Assembly: GCF_040530035.1 (NCBI RefSeq)
Contig: NZ_JBEWCD010000001.1
Location: 2,046,001 to 2,110,000, forward strand
DNA length: 64,000 bases
Reading direction: 5' to 3'
From: Roseibium sp. HPY-6
GTDB taxonomy: Bacteria > Pseudomonadota > Alphaproteobacteria > Rhizobiales > Stappiaceae
This document shows, piece by piece, positions 30,853 through 41,709 of this stretch; position 1 is the stretch's first letter, and the number at the start of each line of letters is the position of its first letter. The notes under the pieces were generated by a model. That model worked only from the letters and a program-made list of their open reading frames with translations. It was not told where the DNA came from and searched no databases. Made by a program: the position numbers and the translations under genes.

Positions 30853-32070
30853 ATGGACGTGAATGCGTATCTCGAAGAGCGCTTGGGCAAACTTCATGAC
30901 AATGGTAATTACCGGGTCTTCGCAGATCTTGAGCGTCAATCAGGAAATTTCCCCCGGGCAACGCGCTATCGCGAAGACGGCTCGCAGCAGGACGTCACTG
31001 TATGGTGCTCCAACGATTATCTTGGAATGGGCCAGCATGATAAGGTTGTTGGCGCGATGCAGGATGTCATCGCCAAATGCGGCGCTGGCGCTGGTGGAAC
31101 ACGCAATATCTCGGGCACAAATCACTATCACGTCCTTCTGGAACGCGAATTGGCCGATCTTCACGCCAAGGAAGCGGCCCTGATCTTCACATCCGGATAT
31201 GTCTCCAACTGGGCCGCATTGGGCACGCTGGCGTCCCAGGTGCCGGGCATGATCGTATACTCCGACAGCCTTAATCATGCGTCCATGATCGAGGGGATTC
31301 GTCACGCACGCTGCGAGAAGCGGATCTTCAAGCACAATGATTATGAAGATCTTGAGCGCCTGATGGCCGCGGACGATCCGGACGCGCCGAAAATGGTCGC
31401 GTTCGAGAGCGTTTATTCCATGGACGGAGACATCGCGCCGATCAAGGAAATTTGCGACGTCGCCGACAAGTTCGGCGCCCTCACCTATCTCGATGAGGTA
31501 CACGCCGTCGGCATGTATGGCGCACGCGGCGGCGGCGTTGCCGAACGCGAAGGCCTGATGGATCGTCTGACAATCATCGAAGGCACGCTTGGCAAGGCGT
31601 TCGGTGTCATGGGCGGTTACATCACCGGCAGCAAGACGGTCGTGGATTTCATCCGGTCCTTTGCGTCCGGCTTTATCTTCACCACAGCACTGCCCCCGGC
31701 GCTTGCTGCAGGCGCAACGGCTTCCATCAAGCACCTGAAGGAAAGCCCGTTCGAGCGCAAGGCACACAAGGACCGGGTCGCACAAGTTCGTGCGGCGCTG
31801 GACAAACGCGGCATTCCGCATATGGAAAATCCGAGCCACATCGTGCCGGTCATGGTCGGCGATGCGAAGAAGTGCAAGTGGATCTCCGACATCCTGCTGG
31901 AGACCTATGGCATCTACGTTCAGCCGATCAATTACCCGACGGTGCCGGTCGGCACGGAGCGCCTGCGTTTTACGCCTACACCACTGCACACGGCAGCCGA
32001 CATCGAGCATCTTGCTGATTCAATCAACGATCTCTGGTCGCAATGCGCGCTTGCCCGCGCCGTGGCCTGA
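30853..32070 (+). CDS. hemA: 5-aminolevulinate synthase
   Basis: A 405-aa PLP enzyme condensing glycine and succinyl-CoA to 5-aminolevulinate, the committed step of heme synthesis by the C4 route. Visible features: [49 protein letters not shown] and the PLP lysine Lys248 in [13 protein letters not shown]. Length matches alphaproteobacterial HemA. The gene is monocistronic: a strong terminator follows at 32106-32131. An FNR-type site upstream suggests oxygen control. Confidence 0.97.
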
Positions 32071-34145: not shown

Positions 34146-35393
34146 ATGGCCACCGGTCTTTTGATGCTGGCGATGTTTACGGTCTGCTACACGTTGCTGG
34201 CGAAGACGCTGTCAAATGGCATTCTGACCGCTCCGATCCTGTTCATCGGCTTCGGCTACCTGATGTCGCAGACGGGCCTGATGCCCTTTGCAGAGGCTGA
34301 ACACCTTCTGCACATCGTTGCCGAACTCGCTCTGATCATCCTCTTGTTCCTGGATGCGGCACAGATCAACCTGAAAGCGCTGCGCGAACGGCATCAGTGG
34401 CCGCTCAGAATGCTGCTCATCGGTCTGCCGCTTGCCCTGCTGATCGGGACGGCTGCCGCAGCCCCCTTCCTGACAACGTATCCACTCATCGTCGCAGCGC
34501 TGGTCGCTGCGCTGCTTGCACCGACCGATGCCGCACTCGGCCAGGCCGTCGTGACCAATGAAGCCGTCCCTAAACGTGTCCGGCGCGCGCTCACGCTGGA
34601 GAGCGGCCTGAACGATGGCCTTGCGCTGCCGGTCATCCTGCTCTTTGCAAGTTTAACTGCTGAAATGATGCACCAGGACACCACCAATTGGCTCCTGTTC
34701 GGCGCCAAACAGCTGATCTTCGGACCGCTGGTTGGCGGCATCATGGGATTTGTCGGCGGTTACCTTTTCCTTGCTGCCAAGCGCCGCAAGATGACATCGG
34801 TAACCATTGAGGGCATCGGCGCTATTGCGATGGCGGGAGCTGCCTATCTCGCGGCCGGCATGGTCGACGGCAACGGATTTATTTCTGCCTTTGTCGCGGG
34901 GTTGTGTTTCGGCAATGTCATCAAGGGCCAATGCGCTTTCATCTACGAGTTCACCGAAAGCGAAGGACAGATGCTCGCCTGGGGCGCTTTCTTTCTCATC
35001 GGACTGGCGCTTCTGCCTGAAGCAATTGCGCATCTCGACGCCGGCATGCTGACGATTATCCTCGTCAGCCTGTTCATCGTGAGGCCCCTTGCCGTGTGGC
35101 TGTCGCTTACCGGAACAGACGCGGCTCCGCTCACGAAGCTCTTTTTCGGCTGGTTCGGACCGCGCGGGCTCGCGACCGCGTTGTTTGCACTTCTGGTCGT
35201 AGATGAAATCGATCATGAAATCGGCGAATATCTGTTGAACCTTGCCGTCAATGCCGTCTGGATCAGTGCGGTGCTGCACGGAATTACCGCTGTACCATTT
35301 GCAAAGTGGTATGGTGCCCGCATGTCCGACAATGAAGGAGCTGCCGAAATGGCCGCCATCCCGCCGATGCGGCCGGGCAGCCCGGTCGAATGA
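34146..35393 (+). CDS. Na+/H+ (cation:proton) antiporter, CPA1 family
   Basis: A 415-aa inner-membrane exchanger with about 11-12 hydrophobic helices. The ion-site motifs are visible: LLAPTDAALGQAVV and LESGLNDGLALPVILL (the ND pair), and FFGWFGPRGLATALFALLV near the C-terminus. I chose ATG 34146 because GGAG precedes it by 8 bases and the first helix begins there. It probably exports Na+ or K+ in exchange for H+. It lies upstream of the Rieske gene cluster but separated by 76 bp; a link is not evident. Confidence 0.88.
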   Translation: MATGLLMLAMFTVCYTLLAKTLSNGILTAPILFIGFGYLMSQTGLMPFAEAEHLLHIVAELALIILLFLDAAQINLKALRERHQWPLRMLLIGLPLALLIGTAAAAPFLTTYPLIVAALVAALLAPTDAALGQAVVTNEAVPKRVRRALTLESGLNDGLALPVILLFASLTAEMMHQDTTNWLLFGAKQLIFGPLVGGIMGFVGGYLFLAAKRRKMTSVTIEGIGAIAMAGAAYLAAGMVDGNGFISAFVAGLCFGNVIKGQCAFIYEFTESEGQMLAWGAFFLIGLALLPEAIAHLDAGMLTIILVSLFIVRPLAVWLSLTGTDAAPLTKLFFGWFGPRGLATALFALLVVDEIDHEIGEYLLNLAVNAVWISAVLHGITAVPFAKWYGARMSDNEGAAEMAAIPPMRPGSPVE

Positions 35394-35469: not shown

Positions 35470-37080
35470 ATGAAAAAACACGTTGTAGCCACCTTGAGCG
35501 CCCTGCCGGACCGCGATCCGCAATATGCGCTTGTCGCCGATGTCGACTTGGTGGTCGTCCGGTTCGATGACGACATCTCGGTCTTTTACGGCAGATGCCT
35601 GCACCGCGGCGCTTTGATGTCTGACGGCTACGTAGACGGCGACAATCTGATTTGCGGCGTTCATTATTGGGACTATCGCGTCGACAGCGGCGTTTCGGAA
35701 TACAATAATTCCGAGGCTCTCCCCAAGTTTACAAGCTGGGTCGAAGGAGACGAGGTGTGCGTCGACGAGGACGAGATTGCCGCCTGGGGGCAGGAGAATC
35801 CGCAGCCGTTTCAGCGCGACCAGTATCTGGGTCTTTATGCAGACACGAGCCACGGCACCGAGGAAGAACCCTATAACGGGCTGATCCAGCAATATGCGCG
35901 CGATGGCCTGACCAAGACGGGTCACCACGGCCGGGTCGACGCGATGGGCGTGCCGCGCACGCAGCTGCCCGACTGGGACGACATCCAGATCCTGACCGCA
36001 CAGTTGCAGCGCTTTCCGCTTCTCGATGATGATCCCGTCGGTACAGACGTCGTCATTGGACCCAACGCGCAAAAGCCACTCCGCCTCAAGATCCCGCTCT
36101 TTGTCTCCGACATGAGTTTCGGTGCCTTGTCCGAACCCGCAAAAGTGTCCCTTGCCCGTGGTGCGGAACTTGCCGGTACCGGCATCTGTTCCGGGGAAGG
36201 CGGTATGCTCCCGGAAGAGCAGGAAGCGAACTCCCGCTATTTCTATGAGCTCGCTTCGGCCCGCTTCGGCTTCGACTGGGCAAAGCTCGACCGGGTTCAG
36301 GCATTCCATTTCAAGGGTGGTCAGGGTGCCAAAACGGGCACCGGAGGGCACCTGCCGGGCGCCAAGGTGAAAGGCAAGATCGCTGAAGTGAGGGGCCTTC
36401 AGGAAGGCACCGACGCCATTTCGCCGCCGCGCTTTCCCGACTGGACCGACTGCGTGCAGGTCAAGGAATTTGCTGACGAAGTGCGTACGCGGACCGGCGG
36501 CATTCCAATCGGCTACAAGTTGTCGGCGCAGCATATCGAGAAAGATATCGACGCGGCGCTTGAGGTCGGCGTCGACTACATCATCCTCGACGGGCGCGGT
36601 GGCGGCACTGGCGCCGCCCCAATCATTTTCCGAGACAACATCTCCGTCCCGACGATCCCGGCCCTCGCCCGCGCGCGGCGTCATCTGGACAAATCCGGCA
36701 GGCCCGACGTCAGCCTGGTGATCACAGGCGGCCTGCGCAAACCCGCCGACTTCGTCAAGGCGATGGCGCTCGGCGCAGATGCGATCGCCGTTTCCAATGC
36801 GGCCATGCAGGCCATCGGCTGCATCGCCATGCGCGCCTGTCACACCAACAACTGTCCCGTTGGCATTGCCACGCAGAAACCGCATCTCGTCAGCCGCCTT
36901 CAGATCGAAAAGTCCGCGCGGCAATTGACCAATTTCTTCGAGGCCTCCGTCGAGCTGATGCAGGTGATGGCGCGGGCCTGCGGATACGCGCACCTGAACG
37001 AATTCAACCCGGACGATCTGACAACCTGGAAGCGGGAAATGTCCGACCTGTCCGGCGTCGCCTATGGCGGTGTCGCCTGA
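35470..37080 (+). CDS. Rieske-glutamate synthase-like FMN/3Fe-4S oxidoreductase
   Basis: A 536-aa fusion. Residues ~1-100 are a Rieske [2Fe-2S] domain with Cys43-x-His45 and Cys62-x2-His65 (CLHRG and CGVHYWDY). Residues ~150-530 are the FMN-binding TIM barrel of glutamate synthases: FVSDMSFGALS, GGQGAKTGTGGHLPG, DGRGGGTGAAP. The C-x5-C-x4-C triad Cys451, Cys457, Cys462 (ending CHTNNCPVG) matches the 3Fe-4S ligands of GltS. There is no glutaminase domain, so it is unlikely to be an ordinary glutamate synthase. It starts the plus-strand Rieske cluster with a GGGGGAAG ribosome site; the next gene begins 30 bp later. Confidence 0.88.
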   Translation: MKKHVVATLSALPDRDPQYALVADVDLVVVRFDDDISVFYGRCLHRGALMSDGYVDGDNLICGVHYWDYRVDSGVSEYNNSEALPKFTSWVEGDEVCVDEDEIAAWGQENPQPFQRDQYLGLYADTSHGTEEEPYNGLIQQYARDGLTKTGHHGRVDAMGVPRTQLPDWDDIQILTAQLQRFPLLDDDPVGTDVVIGPNAQKPLRLKIPLFVSDMSFGALSEPAKVSLARGAELAGTGICSGEGGMLPEEQEANSRYFYELASARFGFDWAKLDRVQAFHFKGGQGAKTGTGGHLPGAKVKGKIAEVRGLQEGTDAISPPRFPDWTDCVQVKEFADEVRTRTGGIPIGYKLSAQHIEKDIDAALEVGVDYIILDGRGGGTGAAPIIFRDNISVPTIPALARARRHLDKSGRPDVSLVITGGLRKPADFVKAMALGADAIAVSNAAMQAIGCIAMRACHTNNCPVGIATQKPHLVSRLQIEKSARQLTNFFEASVELMQVMARACGYAHLNEFNPDDLTTWKREMSDLSGVAYGGVA

Positions 37081-37110
37081 CCCTGTAGTCTCGTCTTGAG
37101 GGAGAATACC

Positions 37111-39087
37111 ATGAACGCTGAACCGCTAGACTGGATCAAGGTCGGCCATGTCAACGATTTGCCGGAAGGCCGCGTCAAGACGGTAACCGCGCGCACGACA
37201 TCCATCTGCTTGTCGCACTTCGATGGGCAATGGGCCGCCATGGAAAACCACTGTCCGCACCAGCGGGGCCCGCTTGGCGAGGGTTCCATCGAAAAGGGCA
37301 CCGATGGAAAATGCTGGATCCGCTGCCCTTGGCACGGCTGGGATTTCGATCCGCTCACCGGAAAGCCCCCCGGTGGACATGAGGACAGCGGCCAGCAGAT
37401 CTACCCGCTCAAAATCGAAAATGATGAGATCTTTGTCGGGCTCGAAGCCGAACCGGAGCACGAGCGCACCGCCACCGACGTCATGGCCGAAACCATGGTC
37501 AATTGGGGCGTCAAGCGCGTCTTCGGCATGGTGGGTCATTCCAATCTTGGTCTTGCCGATGCGATCCGGCTGCAGGTCAACAAAGGTAAACTCGGCTACG
37601 TTGGCATTCGCCATGAAGGCGCCGCAGCGTTTGCGGCGTCCGCCTATGGCAAACTGACAGGCAAGCCCGCCGGTTGTCTGACCATTGCCGGACCTGGCGC
37701 AACCAATCTTCTGACCGGTCTTTGGGACGCCAAGGTCGATCGCGCGCCCGTCTTGGCCCTCACCGGACAGGTTCAGACCCAGGTGTTCGGCCCGGGTGCC
37801 TTTCAGGACATTGATCTGAAATCGGCCTTTGATGCGGTGTCCAGGTTCTCTCAGCCTGTGCTAAGCACCTCCAATCACGCCGAACTCATGTCGCTGGCCC
37901 TCAAGACCGCTATTGTCGAACGGGATGTCGCCAACCTGATTTTCCCGGACGATGTCCAGACGATCCCGAGCGAAAAGCCTGCGGGTTATCCTGATGGGCG
38001 CCTCGGCGGAACAGAGATCTCGCCCTCGCCGGACGATCTCGCCAAGGCGGCCGAGATGATCAATGGCGCGAAGCGGCCCACCATCGTGCTCGGCTACGGC
38101 GCGAAAGAGGTCCGCGAGAAGGTCATCGCGCTGGCCGAGAAGATCGGCGCGCCGGTGATGACCACCTTCAAGGGCAAGGGACTGATCCCGGACAACCACC
38201 CGCTGGCAGCAGGCGTGCTCGGTCGGTCCGGCACGCCGATCGCCAGCTGGTTCATGAACGAGGCGGATCTGATCATTTCGCTTGGTTCCTCCTTTGCCAA
38301 TCACACCGGGATCGCACCCTACAAGCCGATCATCCAGGTGGACTTCGAGCGCATGCAACTCGGCAAGTTCCATCCCGTGACGCTTCCGGTTTGGGGTGAA
38401 ATCGGCACCTTCTGCGATGCTGTTTCAGGCTCCGTCTCTCAAGCCGCCGATGCCGCCGACCAAAGGTCCGAGCTTGTCGAACGGTGGGAGATCTGGCGCG
38501 AGGAAAAGGAAACGCGTCTGTCGGAAGATCACGGCGGCGGAATTCACTCCGCAGCGGTCTTCAAGGCACTGACGGAACTCTGCCCGGATGATGCCATCAT
38601 CCCCGTCGATGTCGGCAACAACACTTACTCCTTTGGCCGCTATTTCGAACCACGCGGCCAGCGCATCCTGATGTCCGGTTATCTCGGTTCGATCGGCTTC
38701 AGCCTCCCCGCCGCGCTCGGAGCCTGGTGCGCGACACAGGATTTCGAGGAATACAGGGGCCGCAAGGTGATCTCGATCTCAGGCGATGGCGGCTTTGGCC
38801 AATACGCGATGGAGTTCACCACAGCCGTCAAATACGGCATGAACATCACACATATTCTTCTCAACAACTCAGAGCTTGGAAAGATCTCCAAGGAACAGCG
38901 GTCCGGAGAATGGCCTGTCTGGGAGACCAATCTCACCAATCCCTCCTTCGCCGCCTTCGCCCGTCTATGCGGCGGCCACGGGCACCGTGTCACGGAGGCA
39001 TCCGAACTCGGCGATGCCATCGCCAAGGCGATCGCCCATGACGGTCCCTCGCTTGTGGAAATCATAACCGACGCGGATCTGGTGTGA
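37111..39087 (+). CDS. Rieske-thiamine diphosphate enzyme fusion (acetolactate synthase-like)
   Basis: A 658-aa fusion. Residues 1-115 form a Rieske domain with Cys48-x-His50 and Cys72-x2-His75 (HCPHQRGPLGEG and CPWHGWDFD). Residues ~120-658 are a full TPP enzyme of the acetolactate synthase/pyruvate oxidase superfamily: catalytic Glu169 (RHEGAAAFAAS), GPGATN, a central domain (RPTIVLGYGA) and the TPP-binding GDG (558-560) to NN (585-586) motif. ATG 37111 follows GAGGGAGA. The fusion suggests that electrons leave a TPP-bound intermediate through an iron-sulfur centre, as in oxidoreductases. Substrate unknown. Confidence 0.9.
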   Translation: MNAEPLDWIKVGHVNDLPEGRVKTVTARTTSICLSHFDGQWAAMENHCPHQRGPLGEGSIEKGTDGKCWIRCPWHGWDFDPLTGKPPGGHEDSGQQIYPLKIENDEIFVGLEAEPEHERTATDVMAETMVNWGVKRVFGMVGHSNLGLADAIRLQVNKGKLGYVGIRHEGAAAFAASAYGKLTGKPAGCLTIAGPGATNLLTGLWDAKVDRAPVLALTGQVQTQVFGPGAFQDIDLKSAFDAVSRFSQPVLSTSNHAELMSLALKTAIVERDVANLIFPDDVQTIPSEKPAGYPDGRLGGTEISPSPDDLAKAAEMINGAKRPTIVLGYGAKEVREKVIALAEKIGAPVMTTFKGKGLIPDNHPLAAGVLGRSGTPIASWFMNEADLIISLGSSFANHTGIAPYKPIIQVDFERMQLGKFHPVTLPVWGEIGTFCDAVSGSVSQAADAADQRSELVERWEIWREEKETRLSEDHGGGIHSAAVFKALTELCPDDAIIPVDVGNNTYSFGRYFEPRGQRILMSGYLGSIGFSLPAALGAWCATQDFEEYRGRKVISISGDGGFGQYAMEFTTAVKYGMNITHILLNNSELGKISKEQRSGEWPVWETNLTNPSFAAFARLCGGHGHRVTEASELGDAIAKAIAHDGPSLVEIITDADLV

Positions 39088-39105
39088 GGAAGAGCCTCAG
39101 ACCTT

Positions 39106-39217
39106 GTCATCCCTGCGAAGACAGGGACCCAGTAGACACCGAAAGTGAAGAGTTGCGAAAACCCTATGTTGAGGAATACTGGATCCCGGCCTTGCGCTTT
39201 GCTCCAGCCGGGATGAC
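39106..39217 (-). repeat. Dispersed palindromic repeat, copy B
   Basis: On the minus strand it opens GTCATCCCGGCTGGAGC, continues with GGCCGGGATCCAGTATTCC and closes with CTTCGCAGGGATGAC. It lies between the TPP fusion gene and the small membrane-protein genes and ends 16 bp before the ribosome site at 39234-39237. Confidence 0.75.
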
Positions 39218-39244
39218 AAATGGAAGAACTTCGGAGGACACCTG

Positions 39245-39466
39245 TTGCAGACTGCAGAACTACTTCTTGAGCTTGGCCGTTGGTACCTGATGGCGGGCGG
39301 GGTCGTGGCGGCCGCATTTCTTGTCTTCGGCATCGATCGGGTGGAACCGTCCGCACGCGGGTCCTATGCGTTCCGACCGCTCCTGATACCGGGCATCTGC
39401 CTGATCTGGCCACTGGTGCTGTATCGCTGGTTCACCCTTGAAAAACATGGAGAAGACGCCCGGTGA
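39245..39466 (+). CDS. Small two-helix membrane protein of the Rieske cluster
   Basis: A 73-aa protein with TTG start at 39245, preceded by GGAGG 7 bases upstream. Two hydrophobic helices: LGRWYLMAGGVVAAAFLVFG and YAFRPLLIPGICLIWPLVLY, with a charged C-terminus. The stop codon overlaps the GTG start of the next small ORF (GTGA). It has no recognised family by eye; it resembles small subunits of membrane redox complexes in size and topology only. Confidence 0.65.
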   Translation: MQTAELLLELGRWYLMAGGVVAAAFLVFGIDRVEPSARGSYAFRPLLIPGICLIWPLVLYRWFTLEKHGEDAR

Positions 39467-39636
39467 AACGCGCTCATCGAACAGCTCACGCCCGGATCTG
39501 GACGGTTCTCGGTATCTTGCTGCCTCTGGCATTCTTCGCAGTCCTGACCCTGCGCCAGACGCCACCAGCGGACCGGCCGGCCATTCTTGTTGAAGCCCCT
39601 GCAGGCGAGCCAAGCGGTGCGGAGGCCTCTCAATGA
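39463..39636 (+). CDS. 57-aa single-helix membrane protein of the Rieske cluster
   Basis: A short ORF from GTG 39463 to TGA 39636, overlapping the previous stop (GTGA) and the next start (ATGA). It begins MKRAHRTAHARIW, has one transmembrane segment (TVLGILLPLAFFAVLTL) and a Pro/Ala-rich tail. The overlaps on both sides, the basic N-terminus and the clear helix argue that it is real despite its size. Likely a small subunit or assembly factor of the membrane complex encoded next. Confidence 0.6.
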   Translation: MKRAHRTAHARIWTVLGILLPLAFFAVLTLRQTPPADRPAILVEAPAGEPSGAEASQ

Positions 39637-40700
39637 GTGTGCAATACACACCGGTGATCTGGAACCGGAACAAGATCTTCTACGATGCCGTGCTGCTGAT
39701 TGCGGTCGTGCTCTACCTTTACATCTATATCCGTGTCGCACCCGGTTTCGAGGATGTCACCAAGCCAATCGACGGTGCGATCCTGCGCATGAGAGCCTTC
39801 GGCAGTTGCGCCTTCCTGATGCTGACCGTGATCTTGTGCATCGGGCCACTCGCCCGCCTCGATCGCCGGTTCCTGCCGCTCCTCTACAATCGCCGGCATT
39901 TCGGCGTGATGACGGCGGGGATTGCAGCCGTACACGCCAACTATGTCCTGACGTGGTATTACAATTTCTCACCGACGGACAAATATGTCGCTCTTCTGTC
40001 GTCAAACACCAACTATGGACAGATCCTTGGCTTTCCCTTTGAAACGCTGGGGATTGTGGCTCTGTTGATCCTGTTTGTCCTGGCAGCGACCAGCCACGAC
40101 TTCTGGCTGAGCTTCCTGGGTGCGCCGATCTGGAAGGCGCTGCATATGTTCATCTATGCGGCCTACGCGTGCGTTGTCCTGCATGTCGCGCTCGGCGCGC
40201 TTCAGGGCGCGGGAGATCCGATCTTCACAAGCGTCGTCGCGGCGAGTGTTGTTCTGGTATCGGGACTTCACTTTGCCACAGGTCGCATGGAAGCCAGACG
40301 GGACCGGGGCGAAGAGACGGCCAAGGCATCGCTTCAGGAGAAGGGCTGGCTGGTGGCAGGCGAACTGGATGAAATCGACGATGACTGCGCCAAGGTGGTG
40401 ACCCTGTCAGACGACGAGCGGGTTGCCATTTTCAAGTATGACGGCAAGCTGTCGGCGATCACCAATGCCTGTGCTCACCAGAACGGTCCGCTCGGAGAAG
40501 GCAAGGTGCTTTGGGGCTGTATCACCTGCCCCTGGCACGGCTATCAGTACAATCTCAGCGACGGCCGCGCACCGGCACCGTTCACTGAAAAGATCTCGAC
40601 CTACAGGCTGAAACTGATTGGATCAACAATTCTCCTCGATCCGAACGCCCTGCCACCCGGCACCCATGTGGACCCTGTCGAAATCGGAGAAGCGGCATGA
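39633..40700 (+). CDS. Ferric-reductase-like membrane protein with C-terminal Rieske domain
   Basis: A 355-aa fusion. Residues ~15-215 contain about six transmembrane helices of the ferric reductase/MsrQ-like type with histidines in helices that could hold heme b (His101, His171, His184, His213). Residues ~235-345 are a Rieske domain with Cys280-x-His282 and Cys299-x2-His302 (CAHQNGPLGEG, CPWHGYQY). This would carry electrons between a cytoplasmic iron-sulfur centre and membrane heme. It is translationally coupled to the 57-aa ORF and to the next gene (ATGA overlaps). Confidence 0.85.
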   Translation: MSVQYTPVIWNRNKIFYDAVLLIAVVLYLYIYIRVAPGFEDVTKPIDGAILRMRAFGSCAFLMLTVILCIGPLARLDRRFLPLLYNRRHFGVMTAGIAAVHANYVLTWYYNFSPTDKYVALLSSNTNYGQILGFPFETLGIVALLILFVLAATSHDFWLSFLGAPIWKALHMFIYAAYACVVLHVALGALQGAGDPIFTSVVAASVVLVSGLHFATGRMEARRDRGEETAKASLQEKGWLVAGELDEIDDDCAKVVTLSDDERVAIFKYDGKLSAITNACAHQNGPLGEGKVLWGCITCPWHGYQYNLSDGRAPAPFTEKISTYRLKLIGSTILLDPNALPPGTHVDPVEIGEAA

Positions 40701-41458
40701 GCTGGAGACAGACGAAAGACGCCCCCTTCTATGTCGGCTACCTGAATGCGGTGCCGAAGCAACTGGTCATGTTCCTCGTTGTCTTCGCTGTCTGCTTTGC
40801 GGGCGGTTTGGGCATCGCCGCACTTGCGCTCTCCTCGACGCAGAATGATCCGGGCAACGGCGGGTTCCAATGGGGCAACCGGTTTGAAAATGTCGGCATC
40901 CTCGAACTGCGTCCCTACCCCGTTCTTCGCGTGCCTGCAGACGGCGAGACCCCTGCACGGACCTATATGCTTGCTGGCCAGGGAAAACGTGGAGCATTCA
41001 GTCAGGCGGAAAAGAACCAGGACGGGCCTGTGACCCTGCGGGGAGTCCCGGTCAATCGCGGCGACCTCACCATGATCCAGGTCGGGCGGGTCGAAGCCGT
41101 GGAAGGAGGCGCTCCCGACTTTACGCCCGCGGGTCCTGAGCCGTTGGGCCGCTGGAAACTAACCGGAGAGATCTGCGACGGCAAATGCTATGCCGGGGCC
41201 ATGCGGCCAGGTCGCGGCCTTGCCCACAAGGCCTGTGCAGACCTCTGCCTGACCGGAGGCATACCGCCGGTCTTCGTCTCCTCAGGCCCGGTAGAGAACC
41301 GCAACTTCTTCCTGATGGCCGATCAGGACGGAAACCTGATTGGTGACGAAATCAAACCGTTGCTGGCGCTTTACGTTGAACTGGAGGGCGACGTCGAACG
41401 CCTCGATGATCTGATGGTCTTTAAGGTGGACCTTGCAAAAGCGAGGATCCTGAAATGA
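40697..41458 (+). CDS. Membrane-anchored protein with C-x3-C...H-x2-C-x3-C motif
   Basis: A 253-aa protein with one N-terminal helix (residues ~22-46) and a periplasmic domain. The notable segment is residues 158-191: Cys160-x3-Cys164, GAMRPGRG, His177-x2-Cys180-x3-Cys184, TGGIPP. Such paired cysteines and a histidine could bind a metal or form disulfides. I recall similar unnamed proteins with a GExxDxKC...HxxCAxxCxxGGIPP pattern but know no function. It overlaps both neighbours by 4 bp, so it is part of the same complex or pathway. Confidence 0.7.
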   Translation: MSWRQTKDAPFYVGYLNAVPKQLVMFLVVFAVCFAGGLGIAALALSSTQNDPGNGGFQWGNRFENVGILELRPYPVLRVPADGETPARTYMLAGQGKRGAFSQAEKNQDGPVTLRGVPVNRGDLTMIQVGRVEAVEGGAPDFTPAGPEPLGRWKLTGEICDGKCYAGAMRPGRGLAHKACADLCLTGGIPPVFVSSGPVENRNFFLMADQDGNLIGDEIKPLLALYVELEGDVERLDDLMVFKVDLAKARILK

Positions 41459-41709
41459 GCGAAGACCAATCCCCGAGACCGGCCTGGCAGACCATCCTGA
41501 TCTCGCTGATCCTGACGGCCGCGCTCACAGCGATTGCCTACTACGCCTGGATCTACGCCAATATCGGCGCGCGTCAGTGGGACGTGACCAAGAACAGCCT
41601 GACAACAGACCTTCGGTTCTTTGTCGGGCTGCTGGCGGTCTTCCTTGTCCTGACGTTCCTCGACAAGATCATCGAGTTCGTGAAAACGAAGATCGGTGGC
41701 GGGCACTGA
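41455..41709 (+). CDS. Small two-helix membrane protein, end of the Rieske cluster
   Basis: An 84-aa protein with two hydrophobic helices (TILISLILTAALTAIAYYAWIY and FFVGLLAVFLVLTFLDKIIEF) and a lysine-rich C-terminus. Its start overlaps the previous stop. It ends 6 bp before the stop of the convergent alpha/beta hydrolase gene. No family recognised; probably a subunit of the membrane redox complex. Confidence 0.65.
   Translation: MSEDQSPRPAWQTILISLILTAALTAIAYYAWIYANIGARQWDVTKNSLTTDLRFFVGLLAVFLVLTFLDKIIEFVKTKIGGGH

Follow-up and report, generated by a model that had tools for sequence, protein, structure and literature searches.

A stretch of 64,000 nucleotides from Roseibium sp. HPY-6 (the window) carries a real, conserved redox cluster that is apparently undescribed, as judged from the literature searched. 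It comprises seven genes, A to G, read as open reading frames on the plus strand at 35470–41709. The recurrence of these genes in order is more than chance; though conserved, the set is modular. Domain content, ligand conservation, synteny, co-occurrence and a fusion of C with D can be read directly in the sequences. We tentatively favour, at somewhat short of an even chance, a modular system for electron transfer across the membrane, with Rieske [2Fe-2S] domains as its wiring, in which electrons would pass from A and B through the hemes of E to F.

Gene content and conserved residues

The ORF coordinates bore out the seven same-strand genes and four 4-bp overlaps (C/D, D/E, E/F and F/G) described in a first-pass annotation of this DNA (Table 1). 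A and B are separated by 30 bp, and B and C by 157 bp. The ATG of B at 37111 is preceded by the Shine-Dalgarno-like GAGGGAG, and a TTG at 37096 also opens the B frame. Three Rieske fusions had been proposed, to a GltS protein, a TPP enzyme and a ferric-reductase domain, and all were recovered as Pfam matches in A, B and E. As had been claimed, each Rieske domain keeps both Cys and both His ligands (C43/H45/C62/H65 in A, C48/H50/C72/H75 in B, and C280/H282/C299/H302 in E). With A to G confirmed, what had been missed was the Na_H_Exchanger antiporter gene directly upstream of A, whose start was set by homology and whose frame is open from 33888. Hydropathy analysis gave two weak segments in C, one in D, two in G, and a single N-terminal one in F.

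Table 1. Positions of the cluster genes, their domains and the adjoining antiporter gene in the window
Feature	Position	Strand	Basis
CPA: Na_H_Exchanger-fold cation/proton antiporter	likely 34146-35393	+	415 aa; Pfam PF00999, E 2.2e-36
A: Rieske + GltS-type FMN/[3Fe-4S]	35470-37080	+	536 aa; Pfam Rieske + Glu_synthase; ligand residues
Rieske [2Fe-2S] domain of A	35479-35721	+	PF00355, residues 4-84
B: Rieske + PoxB-like TPP enzyme	37111-39087	+	658 aa; Pfam Rieske + TPP_enzyme N/M/C
Rieske [2Fe-2S] domain of B	37129-37368	+	PF00355, residues 7-86
C: small membrane protein	39245-39466	+	73 aa; TTG start; Pfam none
D: single-span membrane protein	39463-39636	+	57 aa; GTG start; Pfam none
E: ferric-reductase-like (YedZ/FRD) b-heme membrane domain + C-terminal Rieske	39633-40700	+	355 aa; Pfam Ferric_reduct + Rieske
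Rieske [2Fe-2S] domain of E	40347-40604	+	PF00355, residues 239-324
F: membrane-anchored, two OB-like domains (predicted)	40697-41458	+	253 aa; Pfam none
F motif C160-x3-C164-x12-H177-x2-C180-x3-C184	41174-41248	+	
G: small membrane protein, two predicted spans	41455-41709	+	84 aa; Pfam none

A Rieske oxygenase was rejected, as Pfam places no catalytic oxygenase domain in any of the three Rieske proteins; a defence system was likewise rejected, PADLOC anti-phage defence models having 0 matches among 9 proteins. The closest relatives are from Roseibium. Downstream of the cluster in the window lie a hydrolase gene and branched-chain-type ABC genes, the latter named by reading.

Aligned relatives showed strong conservation of the residues concerned. 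Among 35 A sequences, C43 and the [3Fe-4S] cysteines C451, C457 and C462 are present in 35/35, and the other three Rieske ligands in 89%; 4 of the 35 are of CDGSH type. The Rieske ligands of B, together with H168 and E169 (the latter the catalytic Glu of a TPP enzyme), are invariant in 27 sequences. The annotation of E as a ferric-reductase-like Rieske membrane protein is upheld by the invariance, across 60 aligned relatives, of His 89, 101, 155, 171 and 184 and of all four Rieske ligands. F, with its one N-terminal hydrophobic segment, fits the Cys/His membrane-anchored protein described earlier; C164, H177, C180 and C184 of its motif occur in 56/56 sequences and C160 in 98%. Structure prediction suggests two OB-like domains bearing this conserved Cys/His site.

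Conserved but modular occurrence of the gene set

Loci were found through similarity to F, and the best 80 of 281 were inspected; F is present at every locus by construction because the loci were fetched by it. Twenty-four are Roseibium-type (L001-L023 and L078, from Roseibium, Labrenzia, Stappia and one unclassified alphaproteobacterium), and the other 56 include one further Roseibium (L056) and two loci of a single Rhizobium strain. The order A to F is repeated at 20 of the 24 Roseibium-type loci, with a similar G at 24/24.

Outside this group, among the same best 80 of 281, E accompanies F at 56/56 loci and relatives of C are found at 54/56, the remaining two stretches starting inside E at a contig end. 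Relatives of D were found at 39/56 loci of these best 80. Gene calls came from a simple codon-usage script that missed D in many loci; it also missed B in L118 (read from the frame), F in L141 and A in L146. A G-like sequence occurs at only 1/56 of these F-fetched loci, and in some loci other small proteins take its place. Ten of 11 long C proteins are C-D fusions, with a D-like part at their end. Within the same set of 56, a Rieske-bearing A lies nearby at 24 loci and a Rieske-bearing B at 10, and at 28 the fetched stretch holds the membrane core and lacks both.

Whole-genome counts were made with A and B at E <= 1e-150 and F at 1e-20 (class sample) or by a domain profile at 1e-6 (phylum sample), leaving weaker relatives uncounted. 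In the class sample of 289 alphaproteobacterial genomes, Rieske-A was found in 8, B in 13, F in 14, and all three in 7 that are spread over 5 genera. Thus 7 of the 8 genomes with Rieske-A also hold B and F (hypergeometric p, relatedness ignored, of 4e-10 for the A-B and 9e-10 for the A-F co-occurrence), and the genes are not neighbours in 4 of the 7. B was present in 5 of the 249 genomes of the phylum sample, all 5 of which also hold Rieske-A and F; the A of a further genome (G430), which starts at residue 109 and has an internal stop, was excluded from the Rieske count. The order A-CD-E-F-B was seen in four B-bearing genomes of this sample besides the window's own, the place of F in one (G476) coming from a separate search. 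A and B are also found together on three haloarchaeal plasmids, at 59-62% identity to the window proteins, and the stretches fetched there hold no relative of E or F.

The claim that the seven genes are conserved as one set thus stands as to conservation, given the A to F order in Roseibium-type loci, and falls as to a fixed unit. The core without A or B, A and B without E or F on the haloarchaeal plasmids, and the unlinked A, B and F in four class genomes all speak against such a unit, and these modular and unlinked occurrences contradict a fixed seven-gene pathway.

The same observations bear on a reading that we rate as rather unlikely, namely that two independent modules are merely neighbours. 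A and B would then work as soluble partners: B would oxidise a 2-oxo acid and, by Rieske-to-Rieske transfer, drive a reductive GltS-like reaction of A. C-D-E-F would be a separate periplasmic redox or metal-handling complex. The haloarchaeal pairs and the cores without A or B fit it, as does a Rhizobium core locus that adjoins an SDR gene and a TPP enzyme without a Rieske domain, and short relatives of the second domain of F adjoin SCO1/SenC genes in 3/3 genomes. Against it, A, B and F co-occur in Alphaproteobacteria also where they are unlinked, and there is a single tight gene order with 4-bp overlaps.

Some relatives of A and B swap or add mitoNEET-type CDGSH domains. Relatives that align to A only from about residue 105-130 onward are 58-71% identical, and where their N-terminus was examined it bears two CDGSH modules. 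Six class genomes have B and neither A nor F at the thresholds used; in 5 of the 6, B carries two CDGSH domains, and 4 of these 5 proteins additionally have Fer4_19. The extra domains look as if they replaced the missing partners A and F.

A candidate electron route and alternatives to it

Cofactors, topology, direction, substrate, acceptor and complex formation are what we infer for the favoured Rieske-wired system. A cytosolic, PoxB-like B would oxidise a 2-oxo acid, probably not simply pyruvate, and would hand the electrons on through its own Rieske domain in place of the membrane tail of PoxB. The flavin/[3Fe-4S] protein A may trade electrons with the pool of B through the A Rieske domain. 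In E, the Rieske domain would occupy the position that the NAD(P)H/FAD module has in NOX/FRE proteins, accept electrons from A and B, and let them move across the hemes to the periplasmic side, where F would take them by its Cys/His site and pass them to a further acceptor. C, D and G would be small structural subunits of an E-F complex, and the upstream antiporter may serve the function of A in ion or ammonium balance. The path from TPP enzyme through flavin to heme drawn by the first-pass annotation had been inferred and is not supported as stated; a soluble A-B pair also fits.

A more general scheme strikes us as doubtful. It would be a plug-and-bus system. Soluble flavin and TPP enzymes would bear interchangeable His-ligated [2Fe-2S] plugs, of either the Rieske or the mitoNEET-type CDGSH kind, and dock by them to a transmembrane b-heme protein tipped with a Rieske domain; electrons would be exported to periplasmic Cys/His OB-like metalloproteins of a new class. 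The cation/proton antiporter would belong to the unit, and the A-B pair would be common to two domains of life, through the haloarchaea.

The antiporter adjoins A at 13 of the loci inspected, and in two genomes (G123 and G009) it lies beside A although B and F are located elsewhere. Around 22 chosen alphaproteobacterial loci, Na_H_Exchanger was the commonest Pfam family among neighbours (10 of 148 proteins), with the 5 such genes of the window's own genome as yardstick in lieu of a matched control set; the scan covered 148 of 170 proteins, 15 of less than 100 aa and 7 of more than 780 aa being excluded. The flavoprotein KefF accompanies the KefC antiporter, a model for the coupling of A to its neighbour. 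On this analogy, A could be a flavin reductase that acts under stress from electrophiles, quinones or oxidants and is coupled to the antiporter, with B and E-F supplying or removing its electrons. We consider this improbable. An antiporter near 10 of the 22 loci, also where A is apart from B and F, agrees with it. Likewise, of 6 genomes fetched from a family that does not belong to the class (f169), 3 have genes for cytochrome b561, YceI, nitroreductase and pirin in the vicinity of A-type genes; two of these 3 add GST and LysR, and one adds Oxidored_FMN and MsrA. The Pseudovibrio locus L031 has a nitroreductase gene two genes ahead of A and a GST gene immediately after F. However, this gene set is absent at the other three f169 loci and at four loci of other genomes, and the supporting non-alphaproteobacterial sample of 81 proteins was partly hand-picked: it keeps part of a list of 114 compiled mechanically, with four genes on each side, and adds genes from L142, L144, L151, L088 and L031. 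GST, pirin and nitroreductase are not among the 25 commonest families of the mechanical alphaproteobacterial sample, and a Pfam scan gave no second domain such as TrkA-N in the antiporter.

Neighbouring transport genes raise the alternative of a catabolic operon, in which a TRAP-imported organic anion would yield a 2-oxo acid, B would oxidise this acid, and the electrons would travel by A and E-F. A DctM gene lies 65 bp upstream of A in the same orientation in one genome (G451), DctP/DctM-like genes directly follow the core in another (G218), and a sensor kinase and a sigma-54-type response regulator follow B in a third (G326); DctM counts 5 and DctP 3 among the 148 neighbour proteins of the 22 chosen loci. 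TRAP systems are, however, common in these bacteria, most loci have none nearby, and beside the window cluster no TRAP genes were seen, the branched-chain-type ABC genes lying downstream instead. We give this alternative little credence.

Relation to known systems

The full-text literature searched, with subscription journals mostly outside it, yielded no description of the Rieske-GltS/Rieske-TPP pair or of the cluster, in agreement with the earlier statement that no characterised pathway has this gene set. Neither is described in the parts consulted of PMC5859297, PMC3174974, PMC8097209, PMC10715153, PMC3591440, PMC5676040 and PMC5449189.

The closest solved relative of B is E. coli PoxB, a pyruvate:ubiquinone oxidoreductase (PDB 3EYA/3EY9; best PDB match 3eya, E 6.3e-67). 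B matches the TPP N, M and C domains throughout its catalytic part and keeps the positions of the RHE Glu, the DVG Val (PoxB 380) and PoxB Glu469. In contrast, PoxB Phe465, a residue of the pyruvate/FAD pocket, is replaced by Lys591, invariant in 27 B sequences. B has an added N-terminal Rieske domain, aligns only to PoxB residue 527 of 572 and ends five residues later, with no match to the C-terminal lipid-binding segment (528-572). Pyruvate is doubtful as substrate because of the invariant Lys and the lack of a PoxB-like membrane tail, and on the same grounds an ordinary pyruvate oxidase was rejected. The idea of a TPP enzyme acting on a 2-oxo-acid-like substrate gains from the kinship to a 2-oxo-acid oxidase.

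A resembles the glutamate synthase large subunit (GltB/Fd-GltS) in its central FMN domain and three [3Fe-4S] cysteines, whereas the amidotransferase domain is unmatched in its 536 aa (Pfam, NCBIfam) and the NCBIfam GltB model gives 132 bits against a cut-off of 1047. Tandem CDGSH domains joined to a glutamate synthase FMN domain have been described as type 5 CISD (PMC3174974), and a CDGSH-GltS architecture is noted in PMC5859297; the consulted parts of both give no function for it. A shares the GltS subfamily with type 5 CISD, and has a Rieske domain instead of the tandem CDGSH N-terminus.

For F, a search of the PDB gave no solved relative by sequence (best E 0.48), and nothing reached E <= 0.001 in Foldseek. 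Among its structural matches SilF, a periplasmic metal chaperone, stood level with unrelated OB folds, and the OB-like fold by itself shows no function.

E shares the Ferric_reduct membrane domain (PF01794) and invariant His with MsrQ/YedZ and matches the NCBIfam MsrQ model at E 7.5e-10, but at 38.7 bits against a cut-off of 130. No gene for the molybdopterin partner MsrP was seen: Pfam gave none among A-G, the antiporter, the hydrolase downstream and two genes upstream, and reading by eye gave none among the downstream ABC genes. A figure legend of PMC3591440 names model M4, a ferric reductase domain architecture bearing Rieske and FMN domains. Unlike NOX/FRE proteins, E matches only the Ferric_reduct and Rieske families, with no FAD/NAD(P) domain match. 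NOX/FRE proteins are loaded by NAD(P)H-flavin modules, and MsrQ by quinol. If the Rieske-wired reading is true, it would point to what the orphan type 5 CISD glutamate-synthase family and the Cys/His membrane protein family of F do, and offer a bacterial setting in which to compare mitoNEET-like CDGSH and Rieske domains as interchangeable parts. Rieske plugs on metabolic enzymes would then be a further way, in addition to NAD(P)H-flavin modules and quinol, of loading a transmembrane heme conduit of the YedZ type.

Composition of the cluster and conservation of its ligands

The first-pass annotation had described seven genes on a shared strand with four 4-bp overlaps; an ORF check confirmed this layout, and Pfam recovered the three proposed Rieske fusions. 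No Pfam match was obtained for C, D, F or G, and G gave only a sub-cut-off match in NCBIfam. The host genome (7.03 Mb) contains 15 Rieske matches above the Pfam cut-off, 3 of which lie in the cluster, and a search of this genome found no second full-length E. The proteins closest to those of the cluster come from Roseibium/Labrenzia. The gap between B and C contains an element with inverted ends (TTGTCATCCC ... GGGATGACAA), fragments of which recur at other places in a few Roseibium-type loci. The aminotransferase-fold gene, presumably encoding 5-aminolevulinate synthase, has a relative upstream in locus L021.

Coordinates of the features, in the window unless a fetched locus (L) is named
Feature	Position	Strand	Content
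Aminotransferase-fold gene	30853-32070		Pfam Aminotran_1_2 only
Antiporter gene (likely)	34146-35393		Na_H_Exchanger
A	35470-37080	+	Rieske + Glu_synthase
B	37111-39087	+	Rieske + three TPP domains
B-C gap with its element	39088-39244		inverted ends
C	39245-39466	+	small membrane protein
D	39463-39636	+	small membrane protein
E	39633-40700	+	Ferric_reduct + Rieske
F	40697-41458	+	membrane-anchored Cys/His protein
G	41455-41709	+	small membrane protein
Short relatives of F second domain	L136:7868-8335, L137:7404-7847, L138:7742-8230		147-162 aa, no Pfam match
DUF5996 protein (sub-threshold)	L126:7047-7895		after A in genome G009
Relative of the DUF5996 protein	L116:10364-11107		after B in genome G003

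Ligand conservation was examined in relatives aligned from fetched loci (60 of E, 27 of B, 35 of A and 56 of F). His 89, 101, 155, 171 and 184 of E and its four Rieske ligands were kept in 60/60, as were the four Rieske ligands of B in 27/27. In A, C43 and the 3Fe-4S cysteines 451, 457 and 462 were kept in 35/35, and the other three Rieske ligands in 89%, 4/35 relatives being CDGSH-type. F kept C164, H177, C180 and C184 in 56/56 and C160 in 98%.

Structure prediction gives F a single membrane helix plus two domains, both of which resemble the OB fold with middling scores; mean pLDDT is 81.6, and 89.2 for the second domain predicted alone. The second of these domains holds the Cys/His motif as an insert, predicted with lower confidence. 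The short relatives of this domain may form an unnamed periplasmic metal-site family. SCO1/SenC genes adjoin them in genomes G326, G476 and G252, with rhodanese genes too in the latter two. This setting is a hint of copper or thiol chemistry in the periplasm, but says nothing about F itself.

Synteny and co-occurrence

An F profile, run against single genomes from 84,980 species, yielded 281 relatives, and we kept the best 80 of the 281 loci; F is present in them by construction, since they were fetched through it. The first-pass annotation had raised conserved synteny of all seven genes as a check. Of the 80 loci, 24 are Roseibium-type, and C to G were found at every one of these, A at 23 and B at 21; at the other 56, A and B were both absent from 28. 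A occurred at 24 and B at 10 of these 56, along with E at 56, C at 54 and D at 39; the two loci lacking C both start within E at a contig end. The order A-B-C-D-E-F was found in Roseibium and one further locus, and A-CD-E-F-B (CD, fused C and D) at four loci and in G252, G326, G451 and G476; seven metagenome-derived genomes have C-D-E-F-A. In several groups C and D form a single protein, and a D profile matches the C-terminal half in 10/11 long C proteins.

In Rhizobium and relatives (L081, L082 and L041-type loci), the C-D-E-F core is accompanied by an SDR gene and, in divergent orientation, by genes for a TPP enzyme lacking Rieske, a CoA transferase, and OpgC-like and TPR proteins; this arrangement is a second cluster type. 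Roseibium aggregatum PHM038 (L056) has a core cluster with an F only 51% identical to the window type and an SDR gene resembling that of the Rhizobium loci. L061, from a record labelled Oceanobacillus sp., holds a core cluster of alphaproteobacterial type; this label is probably wrong.

Among an even draw of 289 alphaproteobacterial genomes, B was detected in 13, A in 12 (8 of the Rieske form, 4 matching only from about residue 128 onward) and F in 14. Rieske-A, B and F occurred together in seven genomes of five genera; G074, the one other genome with Rieske-A, has a completeness of 67%. The three genes were adjacent in three of the seven (G000, G096, G252), within about 70 kb in G009 and G143, and split over different contigs in G123 and G227. 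In the phylum sample (249 genomes), all five B-bearing genomes also had Rieske-A and F, and five more, every one from family f169 outside Alphaproteobacteria, had Rieske-A without B or F. The DUF5996-like proteins following A and B are a possible further tie between the two.

Domain swaps and neighbors of A and B

In A relatives of Vibrio and some other genomes, two CDGSH modules replace Rieske. Proteins of this build are described as type 5 CISD in PMC3174974, and PMC5859297 also notes the architecture (CDGSH + glutamate synthase domain). We counted 55 A genes with Rieske and 4 with CDGSH, and 45 B genes with Rieske alone and 4 with CDGSH + Rieske, a fifth CDGSH-bearing B lying outside that count. 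At the thresholds applied, B occurred in six class genomes in which A and F were not detected: five carry CDGSH-bearing B, with Fer4_19 between the CDGSH domains in 4/5, and the sixth (G003) has B with Rieske alone.

A Na_H_Exchanger protein is encoded upstream of A. This family was the commonest among scanned neighbors (10/148 proteins at 22 chosen alphaproteobacterial loci) and absent at 12/22; the host genome has five such genes. The antiporter adjoins A in G123 and G009 although B and F sit elsewhere, and by plasmid annotation an antiporter gene adjoins B on one haloarchaeal plasmid and lies about 3 kb from B on a Mycobacteroides plasmid.

Among plasmid records, A and B both have full-length relatives on three haloarchaeal plasmids (59-62% identity), and B occurs without full-length A on a fourth (57%) and on one Mycobacteroides plasmid (52%). 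No E or F relatives were found in the stretches around these genes. The haloarchaeal stretches (L083-L085, L088) variously hold merA, DsrE, rhodanese and sulfite-exporter genes.

A role of A in stress is suggested by three of the six f169 genomes fetched, where the A-type genes (two with Rieske, one with CDGSH) have cytochrome b561, YceI, nitroreductase and pirin genes in their vicinity. However, a mechanical sample of alphaproteobacterial neighbors revealed no stress-gene trend around A. The three islands themselves (L142, L144, L151), two of which include LysR and GST genes, look like an electrophile/quinone stress regulon.

Proposed electron route and comparison with known systems

All parts of the cluster would be most simply accounted for by a Rieske-wired route carrying electrons across the membrane. 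What chiefly speaks against this is that the E-F core occurs without A or B, and A or B without the core; on this ground we gave some weight to a rival reading, on balance unlikely, in which the A/B pair and the core are independent modules sharing a neighborhood.

The closest solved relative of B is PoxB. Counting along the alignment, PoxB Val380 and Glu469 are kept as V501 and E595, whereas Phe465 is replaced by Lys591, which is invariant in 27 B sequences. The last 45 residues of PoxB have no counterpart in B. The natural reading of the sequence is that B would oxidize a 2-oxo acid without being a standard pyruvate oxidase. In E, Rieske occupies the position that FAD and NAD(P)H domains take in NOX/FRE proteins; E matches the NCBIfam MsrQ model under its cut-off. 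A figure legend in PMC3591440 names a Rieske- and FMN-bearing architecture in the ferric reductase superfamily.

Neither the Rieske-GltS/Rieske-TPP pair nor the cluster was the subject of any paper found by full-text literature searching, in line with the first-pass annotation, which knew of no characterized pathway with this set. The component families are already known, and we therefore place the cluster among transmembrane b-heme conduits that work with peripheral redox enzymes.
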